Shown here piece after piece: positions 15,719-34,977 of a DNA stretch of 41,567 nucleotides. The notes beneath the pieces are model-generated. The model ran no database searches. It saw only the letters and a list, made by a program, of their open reading frames with translations, and was not told the origin of the DNA. The DNA lies in IMG/VR virus record IMGVR_UViG_3300009034_000096, positions 2 through 41,568 of that record. One strand, 5' to 3'. How positions within the stretch are numbered: position 1 is the first letter of the stretch; each line of letters opens with the position of its first letter. The DNA comes from a virus. The position numbers were made by a program, and so were the translations under genes.

Positions 15719-17236
15719 TTAGTAATCTCCACACCTTCTTATCATTGACATCAGCTCTGTACTTGACAGCGAAGGGAATATATCAGACCTCTCTTCAAAT
15801 AAATAATCAGTCAGAGCTTTCTCATACCGTAGCCTTTCCCAGAACCTTTGCTCAAGCGTTCCTTTTATAAGTAAAGGATAAACTACCACTGTCCGATGTG
15901 TAGAGCCAAGCCTTCTCAATCTTCCAATTAGTTGGGTCATTCGTTCAGCATTTAGGATGAGATTCACCATAAGCAAATATCGGGCTGACTGCAAGTTTAA
16001 GCCTCCTTCTATAGCATCGGTGCCCAGGAGTATCCTTACGTTGTTATCGTACCTGAACGCCCGTCTGACAGCCTCTCGTGAGGTCTTTGAGACATCATCA
16101 CCAGTGATTTTAACAAAATCCTCCCGACCCATCCCTTTCAGTCGTCGTTCTATAGCTCGTATGGTCTCCTTGTAGAAACTATAAACAATCAATTTCTCTC
16201 CTTCCGTCCCCAATTTATCATCAATGAACTGCATCACAGCATCGAGTTTAGCTGAGACATCCTCTTGGAGCCCAAAGGTTCTTGTCCCCGAACAAATCTG
16301 CATCATGCTATGATACCCCTTGTTAGGAATCTCTCGAATCTTTCCTTTGTCCCAAGCAGCTATTATCTTTTGACGAAGTTGTTCATGTATGTGAACCTGT
16401 TTAGGATGCATACGCAACCAGATAGGTTTAACAATGAGACTTGGAAGCTCCTTCCCTACCTCAGCAAAGGTTCTCTTAATCAAGAAGGGTTCCAGTTTCC
16501 TCTTTAACTCATTCGGGTTCCTTAACCCCACTTCCTCTTTCTGCCAAAACTGCCTCCCATCCCTGAGAGTCCTCTGAGTCTTCCTCATTACACAATAATG
16601 ATTCTCGAAGCCAATTTCCGACCCAAAAATGTGATTAAGTCCTAAAGATTCAAGGAGAGAATGCAAATCCATAGTACTTTTCTGTTTGGGGGTAGCTGTA
16701 GCCAAGATGATACGCTCAGCCCCCTTAGTCAGGTGCTTAACAATCCGAGCAGTTTTTGTGCTATGATGACGGAAAAAATGTGCATCATCAAACACCCAAT
16801 TCTTCACTCCCACATCTGCTATCATCTCCCAATCCCGCCATAATATCTGATAAGAAGTAATATAGACCTGCCAGAAATCAGAAGCAATATAAAAGCCCAT
16901 CCGCTCGTTTCTATTTCCAATGCCTAACGCAGGAGGAGGAAGAGTAGTAAACTTTTTAATTTCTTCTTCCCACTGAAAAATAGTGCTCGGAGGAGCTATA
17001 ATTATCCACTTATTATTATGCCCCAGATGTTCAAGAAGCTGGAAGAGCCCAACACACTGAACAGTCTTACCTAGACCTGTCGCATCAGCTAAGATACACC
17101 TGTTAGCATAATGCATATAGGCAACTCCCTTTACTTGGAAATCATAAAGAGGCTTTTTAATACCACAAAAAGCCAACTTAGAGAAGGGAGTCTCTCCTTT
17201 GTACCGTTTAACTTCCAGAGCCTTTTTGTAATTCAT
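15719..17236 (-). CDS. SNF2/SF2 DNA helicase (translocase), 505 aa
   Basis: SF2 motifs in order: Q-like YDFQVKGVAYM (31-41), Walker A ATGLGKT (52-58), motif Ia APPSTIFQWEEE (81-92), motif II DDAH (150-153, variant of DEAH), motif III TATP (180-183), motif V TDAIEGGLNLQSA and motif VI QLIGRLRRLGS. This is the SNF2-like set found in phage replication and recombination modules; it uses ATP to move along double-stranded DNA. Overlaps the upstream radical SAM gene by 29 bases. Confidence 0.9.
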   Translation of the reverse strand: MNYKKALEVKRYKGETPFSKLAFCGIKKPLYDFQVKGVAYMHYANRCILADATGLGKTVQCVGLFQLLEHLGHNNKWIIIAPPSTIFQWEEEIKKFTTLPPPALGIGNRNERMGFYIASDFWQVYITSYQILWRDWEMIADVGVKNWVFDDAHFFRHHSTKTARIVKHLTKGAERIILATATPKQKSTMDLHSLLESLGLNHIFGSEIGFENHYCVMRKTQRTLRDGRQFWQKEEVGLRNPNELKRKLEPFLIKRTFAEVGKELPSLIVKPIWLRMHPKQVHIHEQLRQKIIAAWDKGKIREIPNKGYHSMMQICSGTRTFGLQEDVSAKLDAVMQFIDDKLGTEGEKLIVYSFYKETIRAIERRLKGMGREDFVKITGDDVSKTSREAVRRAFRYDNNVRILLGTDAIEGGLNLQSARYLLMVNLILNAERMTQLIGRLRRLGSTHRTVVVYPLLIKGTLEQRFWERLRYEKALTDYLFEERSDIFPSLSSTELMSMIRRCGDY

Positions 17237-18272
17237 TCTTTAACCCTCGTAAAATCGTCTGCCTTTTATGCCTTACCTCAGCAGGAACCTTCCCGTCCAG
17301 ATAATAAGAGGGAGTTCCAACAACCTCAGTATAGTTACCAATAAGAATCTCATTATAATCTATACTCTCCAAAAACTCCTTCGTTTTCTCGAAGTCCTCT
17401 TCCGTCTCTCCTGGGAACCCCACCAACATGTATACCCCAAGATTTAGGTTTGGGAACTCCTCTCTCAACTTGAGAAAGCACCTTTTAACATCTTCAATCA
17501 CATAGTTTCTTCCCATCAACTTCAAAATCTTATCACTTCCAGACTGAACGGGGATATACAACTGTTTCACCTTCCCTAATTTTAAAACTCTCTCCAACCC
17601 TTCATAGTAATGAATAACCCACTGAGCATTGCATCTAAATAAATAGAAACAATACTCCAACTCTCGTGGCTGAGAAAAAATCAATTTCGCTAAAAGTTGA
17701 GGAAATGTTTCACCAATATCCGTCCCGTAAGCTCCTAAATCATCAGCCCACAAATAAAATCTTCTATAACCCGCACCAATAGCCTCTCCAAATTCTTTTA
17801 CAATCTCACGCATCGGTTTACTTCTTAATCGACCCCTCGCCTTTCTTATAGAACAGAAAGAACAAACATTATTACAACCCGAAGCTACAACAAGATGATA
17901 AGCATCTGCTCCCCGCAAATCAATCGCATTCTCAACACAGTCTGAAACATACAATTTATCAAAATTAAAATCCATGAAGCCCAAGATTTCCTTACCGAAA
18001 GACTCCAAAGCTTTTTTATAAATTATCGGAAGACAACCAGAGACAATTATCCTACTAGAAGCCTGCTTTCTTTCAATAAACTCCTCTATAATTTTAAGTG
18101 TCCGAGAAATCTTCTCGCCACTATAACCACAGGTGTGGTAAACAATCAAATCAGATTTTTCAACGCTCTCCATAGGAAACCATTCAGCTTCTATGAAAAG
18201 CTCTTCTATCTTTTTCGCTTCCAAACGGCTCGGAGTACATCCGTCAGAAAACACAAAAACTTTCTTGCTCAA
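17208..18272 (-). CDS. Radical SAM methylthiotransferase-like enzyme lacking a TRAM domain, 354 aa
   Basis: N-terminal UPF0004-type half with the three cluster cysteines C12 (SDGCTPSR), C48 (YHTCGYSGE) and C80 (VSGCLP), then the radical SAM motif CNNVCSFC (C133, C137, C140), and late family elements YIPVQSGSDKILKLMGR, YMLVGFPGETEEDF and GTPSYYL. These are marks of the MiaB/RimO/MtaB methylthiotransferases, which add a methylthio group to tRNA bases or ribosomal protein S12. The usual C-terminal TRAM domain (about 60 residues) is absent, so substrate recognition may differ. Phage-borne and placed between lysis and replication genes. Confidence 0.85.
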   Translation of the reverse strand: MSKKVFVFSDGCTPSRLEAKKIEELFIEAEWFPMESVEKSDLIVYHTCGYSGEKISRTLKIIEEFIERKQASSRIIVSGCLPIIYKKALESFGKEILGFMDFNFDKLYVSDCVENAIDLRGADAYHLVVASGCNNVCSFCSIRKARGRLRSKPMREIVKEFGEAIGAGYRRFYLWADDLGAYGTDIGETFPQLLAKLIFSQPRELEYCFYLFRCNAQWVIHYYEGLERVLKLGKVKQLYIPVQSGSDKILKLMGRNYVIEDVKRCFLKLREEFPNLNLGVYMLVGFPGETEEDFEKTKEFLESIDYNEILIGNYTEVVGTPSYYLDGKVPAEVRHKRQTILRGLKNELQKGSGS

Positions 18273-20381: not shown

Positions 20382-22475
20382 TTACCTCCTTCCAGAAGCT
20401 TTCATTGTTCTCCCTCTCTTTTTAACCTTCTTCATCCTATCTCTAGGAACAACTTCAAAGAACCTACTTCTCGTGCCTGTCGGGAGCATTCTGCCTCTCG
20501 GTGCAACCTCAATAATTCTATTTCTTGGAGCAACTTTAAAATATACAGGATAAAAAACTGCCACAGAAGGAAGTCCAAAAACTTCCCCACTAGCAAGTCC
20601 TGGAACAACAATATACTGGTCGACTACTAACTCAACATTCGCACTACCAAATACCTCCGAACTCGGAATTGCAATCGGAACCAATTCCAAATTAAGCTGA
20701 GCATCACCAAATTGCTCCTCGCTTATAACACCATCAGGGATTATACCATAGTTTAATTTACTTGTCCCGAACCCCTCTTCACTCTCTATAGAAGAAGGAA
20801 TAAGATAAAGACCAAAGGTTGCATCACCAAATTGCTCTTCGCTTGGAATACCAGACATAATCAACCGATAATTTAATTGAGGAGTACCAAAACCTTCTAC
20901 AGTCTCCACACCAGAAGGACTCAATACATAATTAACTTTTGAAGCACCAAACAGTTCAGCAGTTATTATCCCAGAGGGTAGTACCTTCAAAACAAGCACC
21001 AAATTACCGAACTGCTCACTCGATAGAATTCCTGCTGGAATAACTGTTTGCTGCAAGTTCAGGAATGCAGTACCAAAACCTTCCTGGCTCTCAATAGCCG
21101 ATAGCAACAATCGAAGATTCAGTTGTCCGCTTCCAAAGACTTCAGTACTTCCAATACCCGATAAGATAAGTGTCTGCTGTAAATTTAAGAATGCAGTACC
21201 AAAACCCTCAGCACTTAATACTGGAGAAGGAAAGACTCTAAAGTTCAATTGAGAAGTACCAAAACCCTCAAGAGACGCAACCCCCGAAGGCAAAAGAATC
21301 AAAACAGGAGCAACATTAGGAGTACCAAACCCTTCACCACTTCCAATCCCTGAAGGTAAGAGGAAGAGTTTCAACAATAGAGAACCAAAACTTTCTCCGC
21401 TTAAAACAGGATTAGGAAAGATTCTAAAATATAAATTTGAGGTGCCAAACCCTTCCAAACTTCCTATCCCACCAGGAGCAATCAAGAGACCTACTCCAGC
21501 AGTACCGAAAGCCTCAAGAGAACCAATAGCTGACGGGAATATATCCTGCACCCCTAAAGTAACAGAAGGAAGACCAAAAGCTTCTTGACTCGCAATAGCT
21601 GACAATAATAACCGAAGATTTATCTGTCCATCCCCACCATTTCCATGAGCTTCTTGACTCGAAATGCCTCCAGGAAGAAGAGTCTGGAACACGTTAAGGA
21701 ATGCAGTCCCAAAACCCTCCAAACTACCGATACCTCCAGGAAGAAGCGTTTGAATTACGTTCAGAAAAGCGGTGCCAAAACCTTCCAGACTAGGAATACC
21801 CGAAGGAAGTAAACTCTGCAATACGTTTAAAAAAGCTGTACCAAAACCTTCTTGACTCTCGATAGCTGATAACAATAATCGAAGATTTAACTGTCCATTC
21901 CCAAAGCCCTCTTGACTTCCAATACCAGACAAAATCAATCTATGATTCAATTTAGAGGTGCCAAACCCCTCCAAACTACCAACTCCTCCAGGGAGAAGCG
22001 TCTGTTGTAAATTTATAAATGCAGTACCGAAACCCTCTAAACTACCAATGCCTCCAGGAAGAAGTGTTTGCTGTAAATTTATAAATGCAGTACCAAAATT
22101 CTCACCACCAGGTATCCCTGAGAGGAGCAGTCTAAGATTTAATTGTGGGCTTCCAAACACTACCTCTTCCCAGCCAGAAGGGAGCAACCTGAGATTTAAC
22201 TGGGGACTTCCATGTCCCTCCTGACTCCCTACTCCAGAAGGCTCCACTTTATGATTAGCTTTGAGAGTACCAAAACCCTCCGCAGATGGGACGGGAGAAG
22301 GAAATACCCTAAAGTTTGCTTGAAGACTCCCAAATGCTTCCAAACTACCGATATTACCCGCAGCAGAAATAACCAAGCCAGCCTTATCTGTATCAGAACG
22401 CAGACGTAAATCCATATCAGGCGAAGTTTCGCCCTTGTCAGCATCTGAACGAAGATAAAGGTCATGACTCGCCAT
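20382..22475 (-). CDS. Repeat fibre protein, about 29 EGFG-type 22-residue repeats, 697 aa
   Basis: Starts with two LRSDADK-like blocks (residues 1-33), then about 29 units of the form [LI]xSG[IV]xSxE[GA]FG[TS]xxLNxxxxLLP (e.g. GSLEGFGTAFLN), each ~22 residues, and a basic C-terminus of [VF]APRxR motifs (EVAPRGRM, VVPRDRMKK). Repeats this regular should form an extended beta structure, as in tail fibres or spike shafts. The start overlaps the upstream stop by one base (TAATG). The same unit is present once each in the next two proteins, so these three likely work in one structure. Confidence 0.78.
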   Translation of the reverse strand: MASHDLYLRSDADKGETSPDMDLRLRSDTDKAGLVISAAGNIGSLEAFGSLQANFRVFPSPVPSAEGFGTLKANHKVEPSGVGSQEGHGSPQLNLRLLPSGWEEVVFGSPQLNLRLLLSGIPGGENFGTAFINLQQTLLPGGIGSLEGFGTAFINLQQTLLPGGVGSLEGFGTSKLNHRLILSGIGSQEGFGNGQLNLRLLLSAIESQEGFGTAFLNVLQSLLPSGIPSLEGFGTAFLNVIQTLLPGGIGSLEGFGTAFLNVFQTLLPGGISSQEAHGNGGDGQINLRLLLSAIASQEAFGLPSVTLGVQDIFPSAIGSLEAFGTAGVGLLIAPGGIGSLEGFGTSNLYFRIFPNPVLSGESFGSLLLKLFLLPSGIGSGEGFGTPNVAPVLILLPSGVASLEGFGTSQLNFRVFPSPVLSAEGFGTAFLNLQQTLILSGIGSTEVFGSGQLNLRLLLSAIESQEGFGTAFLNLQQTVIPAGILSSEQFGNLVLVLKVLPSGIITAELFGASKVNYVLSPSGVETVEGFGTPQLNYRLIMSGIPSEEQFGDATFGLYLIPSSIESEEGFGTSKLNYGIIPDGVISEEQFGDAQLNLELVPIAIPSSEVFGSANVELVVDQYIVVPGLASGEVFGLPSVAVFYPVYFKVAPRNRIIEVAPRGRMLPTGTRSRFFEVVPRDRMKKVKKRGRTMKASGRR

Positions 22476-26680: not shown

Positions 26681-28558
26681 TTACCAATTTCCGCTATCAA
26701 TTAACTTCCAAATACCACCTTCCTTGTAATAAACTTTACACCTCTTCCAAGTTCCGCCTACCTTTACATGAACTTTGGTCTCCTTCCAGGTATCCGAATC
26801 TTTAACATAGAAAAACCTTGATTGGTCTGTATGAGGACTATTCGTATGAGGAGTATGAGAGTAAGGGACATCCGTGTGGGGAGGAGCATCCGAATGGGGA
26901 GTATTTGTATGAGGAACATTCACATGAGCTTCGTTCTCATGAAGCAAATCCTCATGAGGAGTATCTTCATGTTCGTCATTCCACATATCTTCATGAGGAC
27001 TATCAATATGTCCTGTATTTACATGAGGAATATCCGTGTGAGGAGTATGCTCATAAGTTAAATTTTCATGCGGAGTATGGCTATAAGGAGTATGAGAGTA
27101 AGGGACATCCACATGAACAGTATGAGAATACGGGTCATCCATATGAGGAGTATCCTCGTGAGGGTCATCCTCATGGGAACCTTCATCAGTATAGTCGGTA
27201 TGGGGAGTATCTGTATGTGCTCCATTTTGATGAGGAGTGTTCGTATGAGGAGTATTAACATGAGAAATATCATAGTGAGGGTTATCCACATGAGCCACGT
27301 CTGTGTGAGCCACATCCGTATGAGGGGTATGACCATAAGGAGTATGGGAGTAAGGAACATCCGTATGTCCTACATCCGTGTGAGGAGTGTGGGAGTAAGG
27401 AGTATCCGAATGAGCCACATCCGTATGAGGGGTATGATTATAGGGAGTATGTGAGTAGGGAACATCTGTATGAGCCCCATCCGTATGAGGGGTATGGTTG
27501 TAAGGGGTATGACTATAAGGAGTATTCACATGAGGAGTATGGGAATAAGGAATATCCTCGTGAGTTTCATCCTCGTGAGGATTATCTTCATGTGCTACTT
27601 CGTCATAATAATCTTCATGAGGACTATCCGAATGCCCTGTGTTTGTATGAGGGGTATGACTGTAAGGAGTATTCGTGTGAGGTGCATCATCGTGGTCATA
27701 ATGAGGATAATCTTCATGCTCATCGTTCCACATATCCTCGTGAGGGTCATCCGTATGAGTCAACTGGTCTGTATGAGGGACATCCGTATGAGGAGTATTG
27801 ACGTGAGAAATATCCGTATGAGGAGTATTAACATGAGCAGTATGAGAATAAGGAACATCTGTATGAACTACATGCGTATGGGGAGTATGATTATAAGGGG
27901 TATGAGAGTAAGGGGTATCCGTGTGAGCTACATCCGTATGGGGGGTGTGACTGTAAGCAGTGTGAGAATGAGCTACATCCGTATGGGGGGTGTGGTTGTA
28001 AGGGGTATGATTATAAGGAACATCTGTATGAGGAGGGGCATCCGTGTGAGGGGTGTGACTGTAAGGGGTATGGGAGTAAGGAGTATTCACATGAGGTGTG
28101 TTTTCATGAGTTTCATCCTCATGGGGCTCATCCGTATGGTCTACCTCATCAAAATGGTCTTCATAAGGAATGTTTACATGCCCTGTGTTTGTATGAGCTA
28201 TATCCGTATGGGGAGTATGCTCATAAGTTAAATTTACATGAGGAGTATGAGAGTAAGGAACATCCGTATGTCCTACATCCGTGTGAGGAGTATGCGAATA
28301 CGGGTCATCCATATGAGGAGTATCTTCATGAGGCTCATCCGTATGAGTTACCTCATCAAAATGGTCTTCATAAGGAATATCCGTATGTGCTCCATTCGTA
28401 TGAGGAACATTTGTGTGGGGGGTGTTAACATGAGAAACATCTGTATGGGGAGTATGCGAATAAGGAATATCCGTGTGAGGAGTATGACCATAAGGGGTGT
28501 GCGAATAAGGAACATCCGTGTGAGGAGTATGGTCATAAACCGTATTAGTATGAGGCAT
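26681..28558 (-). CDS. Pentad-repeat virion-type protein, likely substrate of the radical SAM enzyme, 625 aa
   Basis: Residues 2-578 are about 115 back-to-back pentads of the form [P/A/G/S]-[H/Y]-[T/S/V/E]-[D/N/H]-x, e.g. PHTDV, PYSHT, AHTDT, PHVNI. Every ~80-110 residues the run is interrupted by acidic blocks (HFDEVTHTDEPHED, MWNDEHED, YTDEGSHED). The last 47 residues are a different module with K[V/Y]xVK.GGxWK units (VKVGGTWKRCKVYYKEGG), common at the ends of phage tail proteins. No signal peptide, TM or cysteine in the repeats (the only Cys is near the C-terminus). The pattern is not the A(D/N)Lxx pentapeptide-repeat fold. The [H/Y]-x-[D/N/H] triads are candidate sites for radical SAM chemistry; metal binding is an alternative. 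Confidence 0.8.
   Translation of the reverse strand: MPHTNTVYDHTPHTDVPYSHTPYGHTPHTDIPYSHTPHTDVSHVNTPHTNVPHTNGAHTDIPYEDHFDEVTHTDEPHEDTPHMDDPYSHTPHTDVGHTDVPYSHTPHVNLTYEHTPHTDIAHTNTGHVNIPYEDHFDEVDHTDEPHEDETHENTPHVNTPYSHTPYSHTPHTDAPPHTDVPYNHTPYNHTPHTDVAHSHTAYSHTPHTDVAHTDTPYSHTPYNHTPHTHVVHTDVPYSHTAHVNTPHTDISHVNTPHTDVPHTDQLTHTDDPHEDMWNDEHEDYPHYDHDDAPHTNTPYSHTPHTNTGHSDSPHEDYYDEVAHEDNPHEDETHEDIPYSHTPHVNTPYSHTPYNHTPHTDGAHTDVPYSHTPYNHTPHTDVAHSDTPYSHTPHTDVGHTDVPYSHTPYGHTPHTDVAHTDVAHVDNPHYDISHVNTPHTNTPHQNGAHTDTPHTDYTDEGSHEDDPHEDTPHMDDPYSHTVHVDVPYSHTPYSHTPHENLTYEHTPHTDIPHVNTGHIDSPHEDMWNDEHEDTPHEDLLHENEAHVNVPHTNTPHSDAPPHTDVPYSHTPHTNSPHTDQSRFFYVKDSDTWKETKVHVKVGGTWKRCKVYYKEGGIWKLIDSGNW
26825..28555 (-). repeat. 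15-bp-period coding repeat encoding His/Tyr pentads
   Basis: A 1.73 kb tract of ~115 tandem 15-base units (CCT/CCC CAT/CAC ACG/ACA GAT/AAT ..., or CCT TAC TCC CAT ACT). Codons vary while the protein pattern is kept, so the period is under protein-level selection. Because the period is divisible by three, other frames on both strands stay open too and can be mistaken for genes. Confidence 0.85.
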
Positions 28559-28589: not shown

Positions 28590-30347
28590 TCACACTAAAT
28601 TATTAGGGTAGGCTAACCCCCTCTTTGCCTCAGAAGGAATATAATCACCTTTAAGTTCAACCACAAATCGCTCTACAGTAGGAGAAGAGTTCGTCACAAA
28701 ATAAAAAAGTGGCGTTCTTATAATTGCTATACCATGATAACAATCCCAACTCATTGGCATCCGTAGCAACTGCTCAAACTTCTCAGCAAGCTCAGGATTC
28801 ATTCCTTTTAGAATATCCAAACGCTGTTGAGAAATTCTCGTCGACTCCTCACACTTAAACGAACAAGGAAGATGAAAAGAAAGACGCACTCTAGCAAACC
28901 TCAAAAGCGGATTAGCCAAATGAGAAAAAGAAAGCCTCAAATGATTCTGTCCTTGTTTCTCATAACGTGATTTAGTAGCTGCTTGCCAAACAGGGTCAAC
29001 ATAACCCTGAGCCCAGGCATCAGCAAAAAACTGAGAGCAACACTTAGGAAAGCCAAGCAACATTCCCTGAGCATAATGGTCATGTCTATCCACCGCTTGT
29101 TTAAATTCTTCAATATCACCAGGAGTTTGAGCAACAATACAACAAACCAGAGCAGGCTCTCCCTCAACAGGTTCATCATGCCTATGAGCAAATCCTTCAA
29201 AACAACGAACTCGCTTTATTACCCCAGAGCATAAACCCTTACTTGCCCAATACTCTGCCTTACCTTCATAACTCTCTTCAGGAATAGTCTGCCAAGAACA
29301 AAGTCTATGTCGTCGGACAACACTCTCAATTTCTAGCTCTGGAAGAATTATATTCGCCTCAGCAAATACATTACTCCACGCCTCTCTTGCTCCCTTTGTA
29401 AGCCAAACCGTTCTCAAAAAACTATCTAATTTAAAACCGCTAAATAACTTCATTGGATATAACTTCCTCCTCTCGTCACACTTATCATAATATCCAGGCA
29501 ATCTGGACTGCCCAGTAATATGCCAAACCCTCGGAACCCCATAGTCAAGTCCCGTAGTTTCATTCAACCAGCCTCTATCAAAAATCTCACTTCGAACTTC
29601 ATACTTCTTTTTATAAGCCAGCCCCTTCATAATTGCAGGCAAACCATCGAAAACTTTCCCACTTTTAGGAACGTAGGGTTCAACCATAGGTTTCTGCCTT
29701 GCTGGAACTTCTGAAGCAAGCTCTTCCTTTATCAATTTATAAGCAGTCTCACAATTCTCAGGAAACATCCGATGAAAATGGAAGAAACCAAACTCCACCT
29801 CCACCTCTGGAGGAACATGATGTTTAAGGTACTTCCCTTCAACAGGCTTCCATTCACCAATCTGAAAGTCATCTCCTCCCCAATAGCTTGCCAACCCAGG
29901 AACTTTCTTAAGAATTCTAACATTCCTATAATCATATGCAAGGTTAAGAGCATCCCAAAGACTCTCTACACACATACTTCTAATCGACTTGTAACCTCCA
30001 CGCTCTGCCTCATTAATAATATTTCGTAACCCTTTGACATTCTCCTCATGCCAAACTTCATCTCCCTGTACTTCAAACACCCAATCCCCTGTCGCTAGTG
30101 AAATTAAATATTCTATCGTCTCATCCAGCCATAGCCAAGCCTTAGACTTCTTCCAGGGAACCTTATAAAGCTTTACTTTACGGGAAACATCCGCCAACAT
30201 TGTTAGAGCCTTCCAAGTACCATCATCACTCTCCCCATCGGCAACTATAAACTCGTCAACAACGGGCAACACTGAAATAATCGCCTCAAGGAATGGATAA
30301 CCACCAGAAATTGCATTTCGAATCGGCATAAAACCTGACACTTTCAT
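28590..30347 (-). CDS. GT2-like glycosyltransferase fused to a cysteine-rich (DUF483-like?) domain, 585 aa
   Basis: Start ATG 30347 overlaps the methyltransferase stop as ATGA. Residues 1-200 resemble a family 2 glycosyltransferase: MKVSGFMPIRNAISGGYPFLEAI, FIVADGESDDGTW, and GDWVFEVQGDEVW with the DxD-like GDE (95-97). Residues ~340-585 have CCIVAQTPGDIEEFK, LLGFPKCCSQFF (432-441) and HLPCSFKCEES (492-502), an order I recall from archaeal DUF483-type proteins; the cysteines suggest a metal or Fe-S site. It lies between the methyltransferase and the repeat protein, so it may sugar Thr/Ser of the pentads. Substrate not proven. Confidence 0.68.
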   Translation of the reverse strand: MKVSGFMPIRNAISGGYPFLEAIISVLPVVDEFIVADGESDDGTWKALTMLADVSRKVKLYKVPWKKSKAWLWLDETIEYLISLATGDWVFEVQGDEVWHEENVKGLRNIINEAERGGYKSIRSMCVESLWDALNLAYDYRNVRILKKVPGLASYWGGDDFQIGEWKPVEGKYLKHHVPPEVEVEFGFFHFHRMFPENCETAYKLIKEELASEVPARQKPMVEPYVPKSGKVFDGLPAIMKGLAYKKKYEVRSEIFDRGWLNETTGLDYGVPRVWHITGQSRLPGYYDKCDERRKLYPMKLFSGFKLDSFLRTVWLTKGAREAWSNVFAEANIILPELEIESVVRRHRLCSWQTIPEESYEGKAEYWASKGLCSGVIKRVRCFEGFAHRHDEPVEGEPALVCCIVAQTPGDIEEFKQAVDRHDHYAQGMLLGFPKCCSQFFADAWAQGYVDPVWQAATKSRYEKQGQNHLRLSFSHLANPLLRFARVRLSFHLPCSFKCEESTRISQQRLDILKGMNPELAEKFEQLLRMPMSWDCYHGIAIIRTPLFYFVTNSSPTVERFVVELKGDYIPSEAKRGLAYPNNLV

Positions 30348-30868
30348 GACCAATAACCTCTAACAACCACAAGCCTCATATATTCTTTAGAGACATGAGT
30401 ATATTCAAACAAAGAAAAATCTTTTTCGTCCCAAACCGAAATATGTGCCTCCGATTTATACCCTTCGTAAGACATATGAACAAACTTAACAGGGTAAGTA
30501 ACAATTATGTACTTTGACCGATAAACAAAAAAATGGAGAACATCCATACCCACAGATTTTCTAAGATGCTCAAGAATGTCTGCCATAATAATAACATCAT
30601 AAGTAAGGTCGACGTGCTCCTTCATAAAATCTATAATATCCATCACAAAAATGTTATTATAAATGCCATTTAATCCGTACTTAGAAATATAATCTGATTC
30701 AAGTTCAACAGCTTCTAGCCACACGTGACTCCCTGCCAATCTTCTAACTATCTTCCCATATTTACCTGTACCAGCTCCAACATCTAGAAACCGTCCACAG
30801 CCTTTGGAAACCACTCTTCTCAGCTCTTCTTCTACAAACTCGGTCATAACAGGAGTAGATTCAGGCAT
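30344..30868 (-). CDS. Class I SAM-dependent methyltransferase, 174 aa
   Basis: ATG at 30868 overlaps the radical SAM stop by one base (TGATG). Motif I LDVGAGTGKYG (28-38) binds SAM, an acidic post-I residue lies in AVELES, and motif IV-like YDVIIMADILEHL follows. This is a small stand-alone Rossmann methyltransferase (Methyltransf_11/23 type). No specific target is visible, but gene order places it in the maturation cassette between the SPASM enzyme and the glycosyltransferase fusion, so a repeat-protein or glycan target is suspected. Confidence 0.8.
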   Translation of the reverse strand: MPESTPVMTEFVEEELRRVVSKGCGRFLDVGAGTGKYGKIVRRLAGSHVWLEAVELESDYISKYGLNGIYNNIFVMDIIDFMKEHVDLTYDVIIMADILEHLRKSVGMDVLHFFVYRSKYIIVTYPVKFVHMSYEGYKSEAHISVWDEKDFSLFEYTHVSKEYMRLVVVRGYWS

Positions 30869-32301
30869 CACTTTCTCCCGCTCCAATCTGGTGAGGCAGC
30901 AGTATCCCCATGCGGTATATCTCTGTGTCCTTTATTGTTATGCACAACATCTTTATGAACCTTGTTACCATGAGGAATATCTCTGTGTACTTTATTACCG
31001 TGTGCAATGTCCCTATGTTTAATATCTTTATGTCCACTGTCTCTATGACCAGTAGTAGGAACACTCTTCCCAAGTTCAAAAGCTTGCTTCCTTAAATTTT
31101 CCACATCAAACCTAGCGAATGCTCTCCAAGTTGACCCTTTCTCTGCTCGTAATGAAGCCTGAACCAAATCTGCTGTCGGTCTTATTGGATAAAAATTAGG
31201 TGAAGAATAAAAGTTAGGGATTATCCCTTTAATCTTCTTCTCTATATGAGAAAAAAGTTGCTTCCAAGCTCCACAATACCTTGTTCGATTCCTCCAATCA
31301 TCGTCTATTGAGTCTCCTGGACACCCCGCATGACACATACACCAGTAACAACAATCTTTACATCCTCCCTGCTCTTGAGGAATCTGAGAAAGAATTTCAT
31401 ACCGCTCTCCAATACTCTTCCCTTCAGCAACTAAAGCCTGGATACCATCTATGGCTAGTCCTCCCTTTAGACACGTTCCCAAACCACCATCAGCCAAAAT
31501 TGTCGTCTCAGAATGCGTCTTAAACACATCACATTTTGTAAAAATACAAGTGCACTCCGCATAGAAACCAAATAAGAGGTCAACAATGTCTCTGTAAGGA
31601 AACCAGATTATGCTAGGGTCAGATAAACAAACGTCTGCAATCTGGCAAAAAGCATAGCCTAATTCGCTCTCAGACAGCTCCTCCTCGGCTTTATCCTTCT
31701 CCTCATAGATAAGGGCTTCGTTTGTTCGAAGAGACCCAACACCGAACTCATCCTTCAATCTTAATAGAAATCGTATAAACCCAGGTAATCGCTCCTTTGT
31801 AGCATTATATTTACTCAAAAGGGAAATCACACCAACTCTTAACCCAGCATCCCTACACACCTTCAGATTATAAAGAACTTTATCTGTCATTTTCTGAACT
31901 TCTTCCATCGGCATTGGCTCTGCATTCCATCGACCAAGATTCAATTCAGCAGTATCTCCATCAAGACTGATACCGACCAGAAAATTATACCTTTTAAACA
32001 ATTCAATGTGTTGAGAAGTAATCAACGTAGCATTCGTCTGGATACTCACCATACCACAGAGCTCATGAATCTTAGCTGCCAACCTCTCCAAGTCCTCAAA
32101 CTTCATCAACAAAGGCTCTCCCCCATGAATAGCTATATGATTAGACTTCAGATGCTTAGGAGTTTCCACATAGGTCTTCTCCATACTCGAAATAATTGCA
32201 TCAATATCGTAACTCGTATCAATACCAACAGACCTAATACGGTTCTCATAACACCGCCTACAAAGCCCGTTACAGCCTATAAGTTTAATTGCTAAAGCCA
32301 T
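30868..32301 (-). CDS. Radical SAM/SPASM maturase with its own pentad tail, 477 aa
   Basis: Radical SAM motif CNGLCRRC (C10, C14, C17) near the N-terminus, GGEPL (60-64), then SPASM cysteines (C250, C252, C257, C277, then C314, C317, C318, C321, C323, C327 and C343 in GGCKDCCYWCMCHAGCP...YCG). SPASM enzymes bind extra 4Fe-4S clusters and modify peptides or proteins (anSME, AlbA, GrrM, StrB types). Residues 418-467 are ten pentads [G/K/A/V/P]-H-x-[D/N]-x, rich in Lys/Arg (HRDI, HKDI, HGNK), the same motif as in the two tail-type proteins but basic. The tail may dock on, or be a test copy of, the substrate. Next gene overlaps by one base. Confidence 0.88.
   Translation of the reverse strand: MALAIKLIGCNGLCRRCYENRIRSVGIDTSYDIDAIISSMEKTYVETPKHLKSNHIAIHGGEPLLMKFEDLERLAAKIHELCGMVSIQTNATLITSQHIELFKRYNFLVGISLDGDTAELNLGRWNAEPMPMEEVQKMTDKVLYNLKVCRDAGLRVGVISLLSKYNATKERLPGFIRFLLRLKDEFGVGSLRTNEALIYEEKDKAEEELSESELGYAFCQIADVCLSDPSIIWFPYRDIVDLLFGFYAECTCIFTKCDVFKTHSETTILADGGLGTCLKGGLAIDGIQALVAEGKSIGERYEILSQIPQEQGGCKDCCYWCMCHAGCPGDSIDDDWRNRTRYCGAWKQLFSHIEKKIKGIIPNFYSSPNFYPIRPTADLVQASLRAEKGSTWRAFARFDVENLRKQAFELGKSVPTTGHRDSGHKDIKHRDIAHGNKVHRDIPHGNKVHKDVVHNNKGHRDIPHGDTAASPDWSGRK
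30901..31050 (-). repeat. C-terminal basic pentad tract of the SPASM enzyme (10 units)
   Basis: Ten perfect 15-base units encoding xHxDx/xHxNx (GHRDS, GHKDI, KHRDI, AHGNK, VHRDI, PHGNK, VHKDV, VHNNK, GHRDI, PHGDT). His is at position 2 and Asp/Asn at position 4 of every unit. Same register as the tail proteins but with Lys/Arg in place of Thr/Glu. Confidence 0.85.
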
Positions 32302-32718: not shown

Positions 32719-34977
32719 TTAAACGCTTGTATCAAAATGCGGGGTATCCTGATGCGGTGTATTCGTATGGGGTGTATCTGTGTGCGGAGTATGTGAATAA
32801 GCTGTATTCACATGTGGATTATCCACATGGTCGTCTACATGAGGTATATTCTCATGAGTTTCATCCTCATGAGGTTCATCCGTATAGTCTACTTCATCAA
32901 AATGGTCTTCGTGGGGACTATCGGAGTGTCCTGTGTTCGTATGAGGAGTATGTGAATAAGGAATATTTACATGAGGAGCATCCTCATGGTCATAATGAGG
33001 AGTATCATCATGCTCGTCATTCCAGATGTCTTCATGGGGGTCATCTGTATGAGTTCCTCCATCCTGATGCGGAACATGTGTGTGAGGAGTATTAACGTGA
33101 GAAATATCCGTATGGGGACTGTTCGAGTGAGCTGTGTTTTCGTGTGGGGTATCCGTATGAGGGGTATCCGTATGAACTGAATGTGAATAGGCAGTATTCA
33201 CATGAGCAATATTCACATGGGGGATATCCCCAAGCAGTTGAAAATCATCTGCCACGAAAAGGCGGGTTCGCTCACTAGCATTATCCTTTACAATCTCTTT
33301 CACTCTAAAAAGCTTATCCGTCCAGGCTCCCGAAGTATCAACTGCTCGACTTCGAGTAAGTTTAACTTTCCGTGTTGGAAACAATTTGAAAGCCTTTATC
33401 CCACAAGAAGTCTCTACAATCTTAACAGGGGTACTACATAAATTCTGAATCGCCTGAGCAATCGTACCAGCATCCGACGCTTCTCTAAGATATGTTTCTA
33501 TATTTAAAGTTTCCCGTACCCCATATTTATATAACACAGCATAATTTGTCTTTTCTACAATTTCAAACTCTTGTGTCTTTGGATTCTGGTTATACTGCAC
33601 TTTAACCTTATTCCGTATAAAGAAGTCATCTAACTTGACCTTCCAATCGTCCCCAAAATCTCTATCAGACAACGACATAGTGCCCGCAGGCACTCCTCCC
33701 ACATATATTTCAAATGCAAGCTTCCCACTCTCTACAGGAGTAAAAAAACCAATGACACTTCGCCCTATTGTCTGAAGCACTTGTCTTGAACTCTTATCCG
33801 TATCAAGGTACATACATATTTCATATGGTCGGGTAGTGTCTACTGTAGTAAATGAGGTCAAATCTAAATCATCATCAATATAACCCAGATAAGTTTTCAG
33901 AATATCCTTTGCTATCTCGCCTGCTTTTTCCATCAAATTATTACTACCATCCACAATTCCCTTAGCATCAACCTCAAGATAATCACCAGATATAAGAGGG
34001 ATAAGCAAAGTGAACTCACCATTATTCAAATCAACAGTATAATGAGTAGTTTCAGTTAAAACCAACTCATCCAGACCTGCTAAATTCAAAGTCACTTTAG
34101 TAACCTCTTTAATCTTACGCCCTGCTATCTTCCACACACTTCCTGAAGGATAGTCCCCTTCGTCATAAGGAGGAGCTGGTCGGTTCGTATTGATACAGGT
34201 AGGAATTATATTAGTTTTTATCCCATAAAAAACAGGAATAGGTCGTCCTTCCCACCCTGCTGCTAATTTAGGGTAGTTACTCACCCAATAATGGTCAATA
34301 GGAATCTGAGCATATGTGCCAACTCTCAAATCTTTTACACTGAAAGTAACCTCTTCGTCACTAACAAAATAGTCAGAGATTCTTCCCGCAAAATAAACGA
34401 GATGCTCACTATAAGGAAGGTCTTCTCCCCCTAGCTTAATAAGCACATTACAGTTAGTCCATAAATAATTTTCGGCTGCCGTATCAAACCAACCTGGATT
34501 GTTCATTTGGAAGCTACCAAAGTTAAATCTATACATCCCTTCAACAAGGTCATCAACAGCCAAGTCCAACATAGGGATACTGTCTTGGCGAACAACAGGC
34601 ATATACTGGATTCCATTAAACTCACAGGCATCTGTAGAAAACATCTTCCAACAGAAAACCATAACAACTGTGGTTGTGGCAGGGGCACTCAAATCATCAT
34701 CATCGAAGCAACGAACATAAATAAGCTGGGCTTGTTTATCAAAATACCAACTACCCGCATTTGCTTTAACTAAAGCTATAGTTGCTCTCTCCGTCATCTC
34801 AACCCCGTCATCGGTAGTAGCATTAACCTTCACCTCAAGACAGGGATGTGAATAAGTAGAACTACCTTCTGATATCCAGGTAGCCCCGCAAGCATAATAG
34901 GCTCGTGGATTTGCTTCTACTAAGACTCTTACGTTAGGATTGGCTAAATCTACTAATTCATCCCATGTACTAACCAT
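32719..34977 (-). CDS. Tail hub/baseplate-like protein with C-terminal pentad tract, 752 aa
   Basis: Residues 1-585 look like a siphophage tail tip/hub protein: LLQWD-like N-terminus, YVRCFDDDDLS, LYFAGRISDYFVSDEEVTF and LVLTETTHYTVDLNNGEFTLLIP, followed by a strand-rich domain with GMKAFKLFPTRKVKL-type sequence. Residues 586-752 are ~32 pentads (PHVNI, AYSHS, PHTDT, WNDEHDD...) of the same kind as in 26681-28558, including the acidic WNDEHDD and HFDEVDYTDE blocks. So the same repeat is attached to a tail-tip protein, linking it to the virion. Placed right after the distal tail protein gene. Confidence 0.78.
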   Translation of the reverse strand: MVSTWDELVDLANPNVRVLVEANPRAYYACGATWISEGSSTYSHPCLEVKVNATTDDGVEMTERATIALVKANAGSWYFDKQAQLIYVRCFDDDDLSAPATTTVVMVFCWKMFSTDACEFNGIQYMPVVRQDSIPMLDLAVDDLVEGMYRFNFGSFQMNNPGWFDTAAENYLWTNCNVLIKLGGEDLPYSEHLVYFAGRISDYFVSDEEVTFSVKDLRVGTYAQIPIDHYWVSNYPKLAAGWEGRPIPVFYGIKTNIIPTCINTNRPAPPYDEGDYPSGSVWKIAGRKIKEVTKVTLNLAGLDELVLTETTHYTVDLNNGEFTLLIPLISGDYLEVDAKGIVDGSNNLMEKAGEIAKDILKTYLGYIDDDLDLTSFTTVDTTRPYEICMYLDTDKSSRQVLQTIGRSVIGFFTPVESGKLAFEIYVGGVPAGTMSLSDRDFGDDWKVKLDDFFIRNKVKVQYNQNPKTQEFEIVEKTNYAVLYKYGVRETLNIETYLREASDAGTIAQAIQNLCSTPVKIVETSCGIKAFKLFPTRKVKLTRSRAVDTSGAWTDKLFRVKEIVKDNASERTRLFVADDFQLLGDIPHVNIAHVNTAYSHSVHTDTPHTDTPHENTAHSNSPHTDISHVNTPHTHVPHQDGGTHTDDPHEDIWNDEHDDTPHYDHEDAPHVNIPYSHTPHTNTGHSDSPHEDHFDEVDYTDEPHEDETHENIPHVDDHVDNPHVNTAYSHTPHTDTPHTNTPHQDTPHFDTSV
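32722..33222 (-). repeat. C-terminal pentad tract of the tail hub-like protein
   Basis: 501 bases of 15-base units encoding about 32 [P/A/S]-[H/Y]-x-[D/N/H]-x pentads, interrupted by GTHTDDPHEDIWNDEHDD and HFDEVDYTDE blocks that also occur in the 625-residue protein. This shows that the repeat was copied between genes. Confidence 0.85.

Follow-up and report, generated by a model that had tools for sequence, protein, structure and literature searches.

Here we describe a viral radical-SAM/SPASM enzyme that carries the repeat motif of its neighbours at its own C terminus. In the window (the whole 41,567-nucleotide stretch of DNA analysed), the minus-strand gene at 30868..32301 encodes a 477-residue putative radical-SAM/SPASM peptide maturase (Pfam PF04055; Foldseek), and genes for pentad-repeat proteins flank it on both sides. 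One of these (26681..28558, minus strand) encodes a 625-residue pentad protein, whose repeats start at residue 2 with no leader and whose C terminus weakly matches a minor tail protein family (phrog_6977). The other (32719..34977, minus strand) encodes a 752-residue tail- or baseplate-like protein with a C-terminal pentad array (32728-33222). It sits between the tape-measure gene and the enzyme gene and is assigned to the tail or baseplate by this gene order, its match to phrog_8917 being to a family of unknown function. Both pentad proteins are putative substrates of the enzyme.

The remaining genes of the cluster lie downstream of the enzyme. A 587-residue protein (28590..30353, minus strand), the putative cassette partner, combines an N-terminal GT2-like domain (weak GT2 match) with a C-terminal DUF483-like domain; it is homologous to Cumys_11/phiLo_141, and the Pfam DUF483 match was obtained in its homologue from locus L013. 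A 180-residue methyltransferase-like protein (30344..30886, minus strand; MetW and Methyltransf_23 matches below cut-off) overlaps the 3′ end of the enzyme gene. In this part of the window (28590-30886) the fusion partner of DUF483 is the GT2-like domain, and the methyltransferase-like protein stands alone; many relatives have DUF483–methyltransferase fusions. DUF483 was modelled confidently (pLDDT of 90) from the window protein (28590-30353) and from L016:11222-12127, with the motifs LG-x-P-x-CC and PCSxxC, and a fold search with it gave no PDB match at E < 0.001. DUF483 is possibly a new fold and the partner of the enzyme.

Two further genes of the window were recorded. A second radical-SAM gene (17208-18272) falls in the MiaB/RimO methylthiotransferase subfamily (213 bits versus a cut-off of 251); RimO acts on the β carbon of Asp. 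The gene at 20382-22475 encodes a 697-residue protein of degenerate 'SLEGFGTAFLNLQQTLLPSGIGS' repeats, for which no NCBIfam match was found.

Identity and fold of the enzyme

In the Pfam scan of the 477-residue enzyme, the Radical_SAM match (PF04055) is above cut-off (E = 3e-10). The radical-SAM motif starts at residue 10, and its CxxxCxxC SAM-cluster cysteines (C10, C14 and C17) are invariant in 47 homologues, as are, in the alignment of these homologues, cysteines C252, C257, C277, C314, C317, C323, C327 and C343 of the SPASM region (residues 252-343; 31273..31548, minus strand). On these cysteine motifs, the enzyme is a member of the radical SAM superfamily with a SPASM domain.

Foldseek matched the enzyme to anSMEcpe (4k38, E = 2.5e-11) and also to ChlB (9gmc). 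The best sequence matches are likewise to an anaerobic sulfatase-maturating enzyme and ChlB, anSMEcpe being the closest solved structure in both fold and sequence. Anaerobic sulfatase-maturating enzymes modify one Cys or Ser in sulfatases. The nearest curated relatives are peptide maturases, among them the cyclophane formers AmcB, YhhB, DynA and XyeB, with scores far below cut-off: no curated NCBIfam model matched at its cut-off across the enzymes tested (best, 83 versus 425 bits), and the best score of the window protein against any curated family was 78 versus 450 bits. Pfam scans detected no PqqD/RRE domain on the enzyme. In the AlphaFold model most of the barrel is confident, whereas residues 409-477 have pLDDT values below 50; the tail is predicted to be disordered over these residues, and its position in the model is not confident.

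A C-terminal tail of ten pentads

Residues 418-467 (30901..31050, minus strand) translate into ten basic xHx[D/N]x pentads, GHRDS GHKDI KHRDI AHGNK VHRDI PHGNK VHKDV VHNNK GHRDI PHGDT, each with His at position 2 and Asp or Asn at position 4 (seven Asp, three Asn). The register is that of both pentad proteins (26681..28558 and the C terminus of 32719..34977). Given the composition of the enzyme's core, the chance of a ten-pentad run is 4.8e-28 per start, and when the tail's own letters were shuffled 200,000 times, at most five of the ten pentads came to lie in register. The run of perfect pentads reported in the earlier note is thus real. The same note had contrasted the Lys or Arg of the enzyme with Thr, Glu or Pro in the tail proteins, which is true only roughly, as the substrates take almost any residue at X2.

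A close homologue, L007, is 87% identical to the window enzyme and also has a ten-pentad tail. Between the two (dS about 0.6), dN/dS is 0.074 for the tail versus 0.106 for the core. The His and Asp/Asn residues of the pentads, ten of each, are all identical, the Asp/Asn codons having undergone six synonymous changes and no replacement. The ten Lys/Arg positions are all basic in L007 too, with swaps between Lys and Arg, so that none of the ten basic sites was lost, compared with changes at 8 of the 20 remaining X sites (p = 0.03). A first tree placed the window enzyme and L007 on a branch of 2.9, which raised the concern of convergence; adding L282, L283 and L285, relatives found through HxD arrays, broke this branch, and in the core tree these three form with the window enzyme and L007 a supported clade in which all five members are tailed. 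On these comparisons, the tail is old and under selection.

Distribution of the tail and of the cassette

Viral contigs scanned with core patterns, not tail patterns, yielded about 60 further loci, and no enzyme of the survey was picked by its tail, only through core patterns or HxD arrays. At least two terminal HxD/N units are present in 52 of 62 distinct enzymes. The other ten have no tail and at least four of them (L013, L099, L016 and L145) have HxD proteins as neighbours, so the tail is not a universal requirement; the core tree requires a minimum of seven tail gains or losses. Homologues beside pentad proteins are not consistently tail-less, since most of them carry a tail. This conservation, together with purifying selection, upholds the proposal that the tail is the substrate motif and functional.

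In most loci the HxD-rich protein is followed by the SPASM enzyme and then by the DUF483 protein, and the last is often fused, in relatives, to a methyltransferase-like domain. The phage cassette is thus composed of an Ω-x-[D/N]-repeat protein, a SPASM enzyme and DUF483. It extends to the Thermus phages phiLo, Cumys and phiMa, whose enzymes (about 32% identity) have HxD units at their own C termini (that of Cumys reads ...HGDYTDHGDAPHGDHWDG) and adjoin HxD-rich proteins, Cumys_13 in Cumys among them, and a DUF483 protein. No HxD-rich open reading frame was found near most of the genome-contig matches L018-L095, most of which are more distant SPASM enzymes. A strict PHTD pentad scan returned one low-complexity match and one collagen-like match, with no enzyme on the contig. 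The enzyme at L277 (1501-3171) has fourteen tail units, many of them in PHGDHTD blocks spaced by 'QALVEGIVDR' linkers, and is directly adjoined by a tail-less paralogue.

The association was also tested from the opposite side. Virus records were retrieved, independently of the enzyme, with a DNA pattern that encodes four HxD pentads, and were classed by their translated array (17 array-like, 20 controls) before the enzyme was sought. The enzyme was present in 12 of the 17 records with in-frame HxD arrays and in none of the 20 low-complexity or out-of-frame controls (Fisher's exact test, p = 3e-6); some of the five array records that lack it may be fragments. Most enzymes found through HxD arrays are tailed.

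Tripeptide grammar of the putative substrates

Residue preferences were derived from 55 non-redundant HxD repeat regions (11,707 residues) chosen for HxD density. Unit spacing in the substrates ranges between 3 and 9, with some larger values; the tripeptide is constant. Asp or Asn occupies position +2 of 96% of His residues, a value partly built in by the selection for HxD density, and of 35% of Phe (bootstrap interval 26-44%), 25% of Trp (15-37%) and 22% of Tyr (16-30%), compared with 5% (4.5-6%) of non-aromatic residues excluding Met. For Phe and Trp the bootstrap intervals lie clear of the interval for the other residues. Neither of the two is a metal ligand, and both are two or three base changes away from His codons, so that chelation and simple mutation pressure both fail to explain the aromatic residues. 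Pro is nearly excluded at X2 (1 of 1,967 substrate units). These frequencies suggest that the enzyme probably recognises a tripeptide.

A distinctive signature, HGDHxD, marks the tails; 40 of the 52 contain an HxD[HYWF]xD block. Gly occupies X2 in 59% of tail units versus 16% of substrate units, and three-residue gaps make up 35% of gaps in tails versus 12% in substrates (gaps within one protein are not independent). Since this signature differs from that of the substrates, the tail is no simple substrate copy, which leaves room for other roles. The idea that a tail copies the unit spacing of its own phage's substrate found no support: L105, L107 and L110 have substrates with gaps of seven and HADHTD tails.

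Many pentads of the two window proteins (26681-28558 and 32719-34977) read Y-x-H (PYSHT, PYNHT, PYGHT), not H-x-D, and the window lineage may have a second type of unit, with Tyr in first and His in third place. An N-terminal GSxWxEGxxLHYID module, repeated two to three times, is common to many HxD proteins (including L009:10961-11992, L126:9102-10004 and L128:8988-10001); in the proteins tested it gave no Pfam or PHROG match, and it may serve in recognition or anchor the protein in the virion. In L110:6510-8186, L177, L206, L228 and L234, a collagen-like Gly-x-x stretch precedes the HxD array within one protein.

Proposed function of the enzyme and its tail

The reading that we favour, with a probability of roughly 0.55, is that the enzyme is a dedicated maturase of phage tail-repeat proteins, whose C-terminal tail is a disordered, selected mimic of the substrate in cis. 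The motif, the conservation of the tail and the selection on it, the co-occurrence with HxD proteins and the fold class are established at the level of sequence, from which the HxD proteins are very probably the substrate. The phage-encoded maturase would be dedicated to the giant Ω-x-[D/N] repeat proteins of its own tail, with Ω being His and, less often, Phe, Tyr or Trp, and would act with the DUF483 partner and often also with a methyltransferase. Its flexible tail would hold it on a substrate that offers from tens of sites up to about a hundred; that docking or processivity is the tail's main job is a tentative proposal, which we hold at somewhat under even odds and which is compatible with self-modification. 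The tail itself would probably be modified in most lineages, where its units fit the modification rule. Self-modification as such, equally compatible with docking, falls just short of an even chance.

The likeliest bond would be an i/(i+2) link from the aromatic ring to the Asp/Asn β carbon, a three-residue cyclophane as in triceptides, and such crosslinks would staple the tail protein. By analogy with those enzymes, cyclophane formation is an even bet for the chemistry; the sulfatase-maturase fold is also compatible with others, for example epimerisation or oxidation at Asp. More speculatively, phages may turn their own tail proteins into a polymeric, triceptide-like structural material by radical-SAM stapling at aromatic-x-Asp/Asn tripeptides, tens to hundreds of them, with the motif copy in cis making the enzyme processive without a leader.

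The main rival, which we consider unlikely, sees the tail chiefly as a pseudosubstrate or an element for auto-modification: it would sit in the active site, or undergo a single modification, and keep the enzyme gated until real substrate displaces it. It would accommodate the HGDHxD signature peculiar to the tails and a position at the disordered C terminus. In the window lineage, Lys or Arg at X2 would make the tail a poor substrate, these residues occurring there in 12 of 1,967 substrate units versus 6 of the 10 window tail units, and it is for these units that a pseudosubstrate is most plausible. However, most tails, with Gly, Thr or Ala at X2, obey the substrate grammar, and some enzymes have no tail at all.

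Docking by charge, the reading that the earlier note found most attractive, is improbable. In it, the basic tail would bind electrostatically to the acidic pentad proteins, and in the window the counts agree: Lys/Arg and Asp/Glu number 10 and 7 in the enzyme tail, 10 and 106 in the 625-residue protein, and 0 and 36 in the C-terminal array of the 752-residue protein. Lys/Arg make up 15% of tails in the window clade and, outside it, 2.4% of tails versus 0.8% of substrates, a threefold enrichment. Yet 50 of the 52 tails are net negative, only those of the window and L007 being net positive, which rules out a charge zipper as a rule of the family. Charge complementarity survives as a lineage-specific feature, with the enrichment just given and with all ten basic sites kept in L007; it is at most a refinement in the window lineage.

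Less probable still is that the HxD arrays are metal-binding repeats and that the tail loads or buffers metal, the chemistry of the enzyme lying elsewhere. His and Asp are good ligands, HGDHxD resembles a chelating motif, and His motifs in some tail fibres bind metal. But the non-ligands Phe and Trp replace His at the rates given above (35% and 25% versus about 5%), which disfavours a pure metal-ligand code; the spacing of 3 to 9 is unlike a coordination geometry, and the arrays are accompanied by a SPASM enzyme.

For Cumys and phiMa, Kolesnik et al. (2024) describe a module of an rSAM protein, a DUF483 protein and an unknown protein, and the section concerned suggests nucleic-acid modification, noting deazapurine genes next to the module in some cyanobacteria (PMC11437467). 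That the rSAM/DUF483 module modifies DNA is very improbable here, as the SPASM fold is nearest to peptide modifiers, the enzyme itself bears the substrate motif and an HxD protein is its near-constant neighbour. Finally, although pentad genes lie on either side of the enzyme, a recent fusion or recombination scar from one of them, as once proposed, can be discarded, because the tail is shared by homologues (the five-member clade and, at a dS of about 0.6 and a tail dN/dS of 0.07, L007), has no nucleotide match to the pentad genes above about 15 nt and differs from them in its residues.

Relation to known systems

The favoured reading, a tail-protein maturase, is closest to the triceptide maturases (XncB, OscB/GrrM, YxdB, HaaB and YhhB), which are likewise radical-SAM/SPASM enzymes (PMC11002830). 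Their substrates contain an Ω-x-X tripeptide, with an aromatic residue first and Asp/Asn or another residue third, sometimes with several motifs per precursor; known i/(i+2) enzymes link Tyr to Asp (YxdB), Trp to Asn/Asp (OscB), His to Ala (HaaB and ScaB) and His/Tyr to Arg (YhhB) (PMC11002830). The phage motif fits the 3-CyFE substrate motif Ω1-X2-X3 (aromatic at 1, i+2 partner) by its sequence grammar only. By contrast, the putative phage substrates are proteins of about 200 to over 1,000 residues with tens of sites rather than short leader peptides, and the phage enzyme bears the motif at its own C terminus and has a DUF483 partner. None of the curated 3-CyFE models (XyeB, GrrM, FxsB, YhhB and AmcB) scored above cut-off (best, 83 versus 425 bits), and a short precursor with a leader, as in 3-CyFEs, is absent, the 625-residue window protein beginning with its repeat. 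Therefore, the enzyme probably works like the triceptide family without being a member of it. HxsB (His-Xaa-Ser), GrrM and CefB are, going by their family names, presumably also maturases beside proteins with short periodic motifs; their motifs and gene sets differ from those described here, and the scores are far below cut-off.

The Cumys/phiMa 'rSAM module' is the same cassette, its rSAM protein being about 32% identical to that of the window, and the passage that describes it mentions neither HxD repeats nor an enzyme tail (PMC11437467). A module of this type (rSAM, DUF483 and an adjacent HxD-rich protein) is present in the window, with DUF483 fused there to the GT2-like domain. In the open-access literature searched, no paper was found that describes phage tail proteins modified by a radical-SAM enzyme.

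Most of what is known of radical-SAM peptide maturases comes from short peptides, and this widespread phage cassette would carry their chemistry over to viral structural proteins. If tail proteins are modified at tens to about a hundred sites, a covalent explanation for robust tail fibres becomes possible. DUF483 would gain a concrete, testable function, and a module so far supposed to modify DNA would be reassigned. The conserved motif tail offers a genetically separable handle on the recognition of a repetitive, sometimes leaderless substrate, and the L277 pair, one enzyme tailed and one tail-less, is a natural experiment on tail function; how an enzyme handles a giant repetitive substrate can now be tested.
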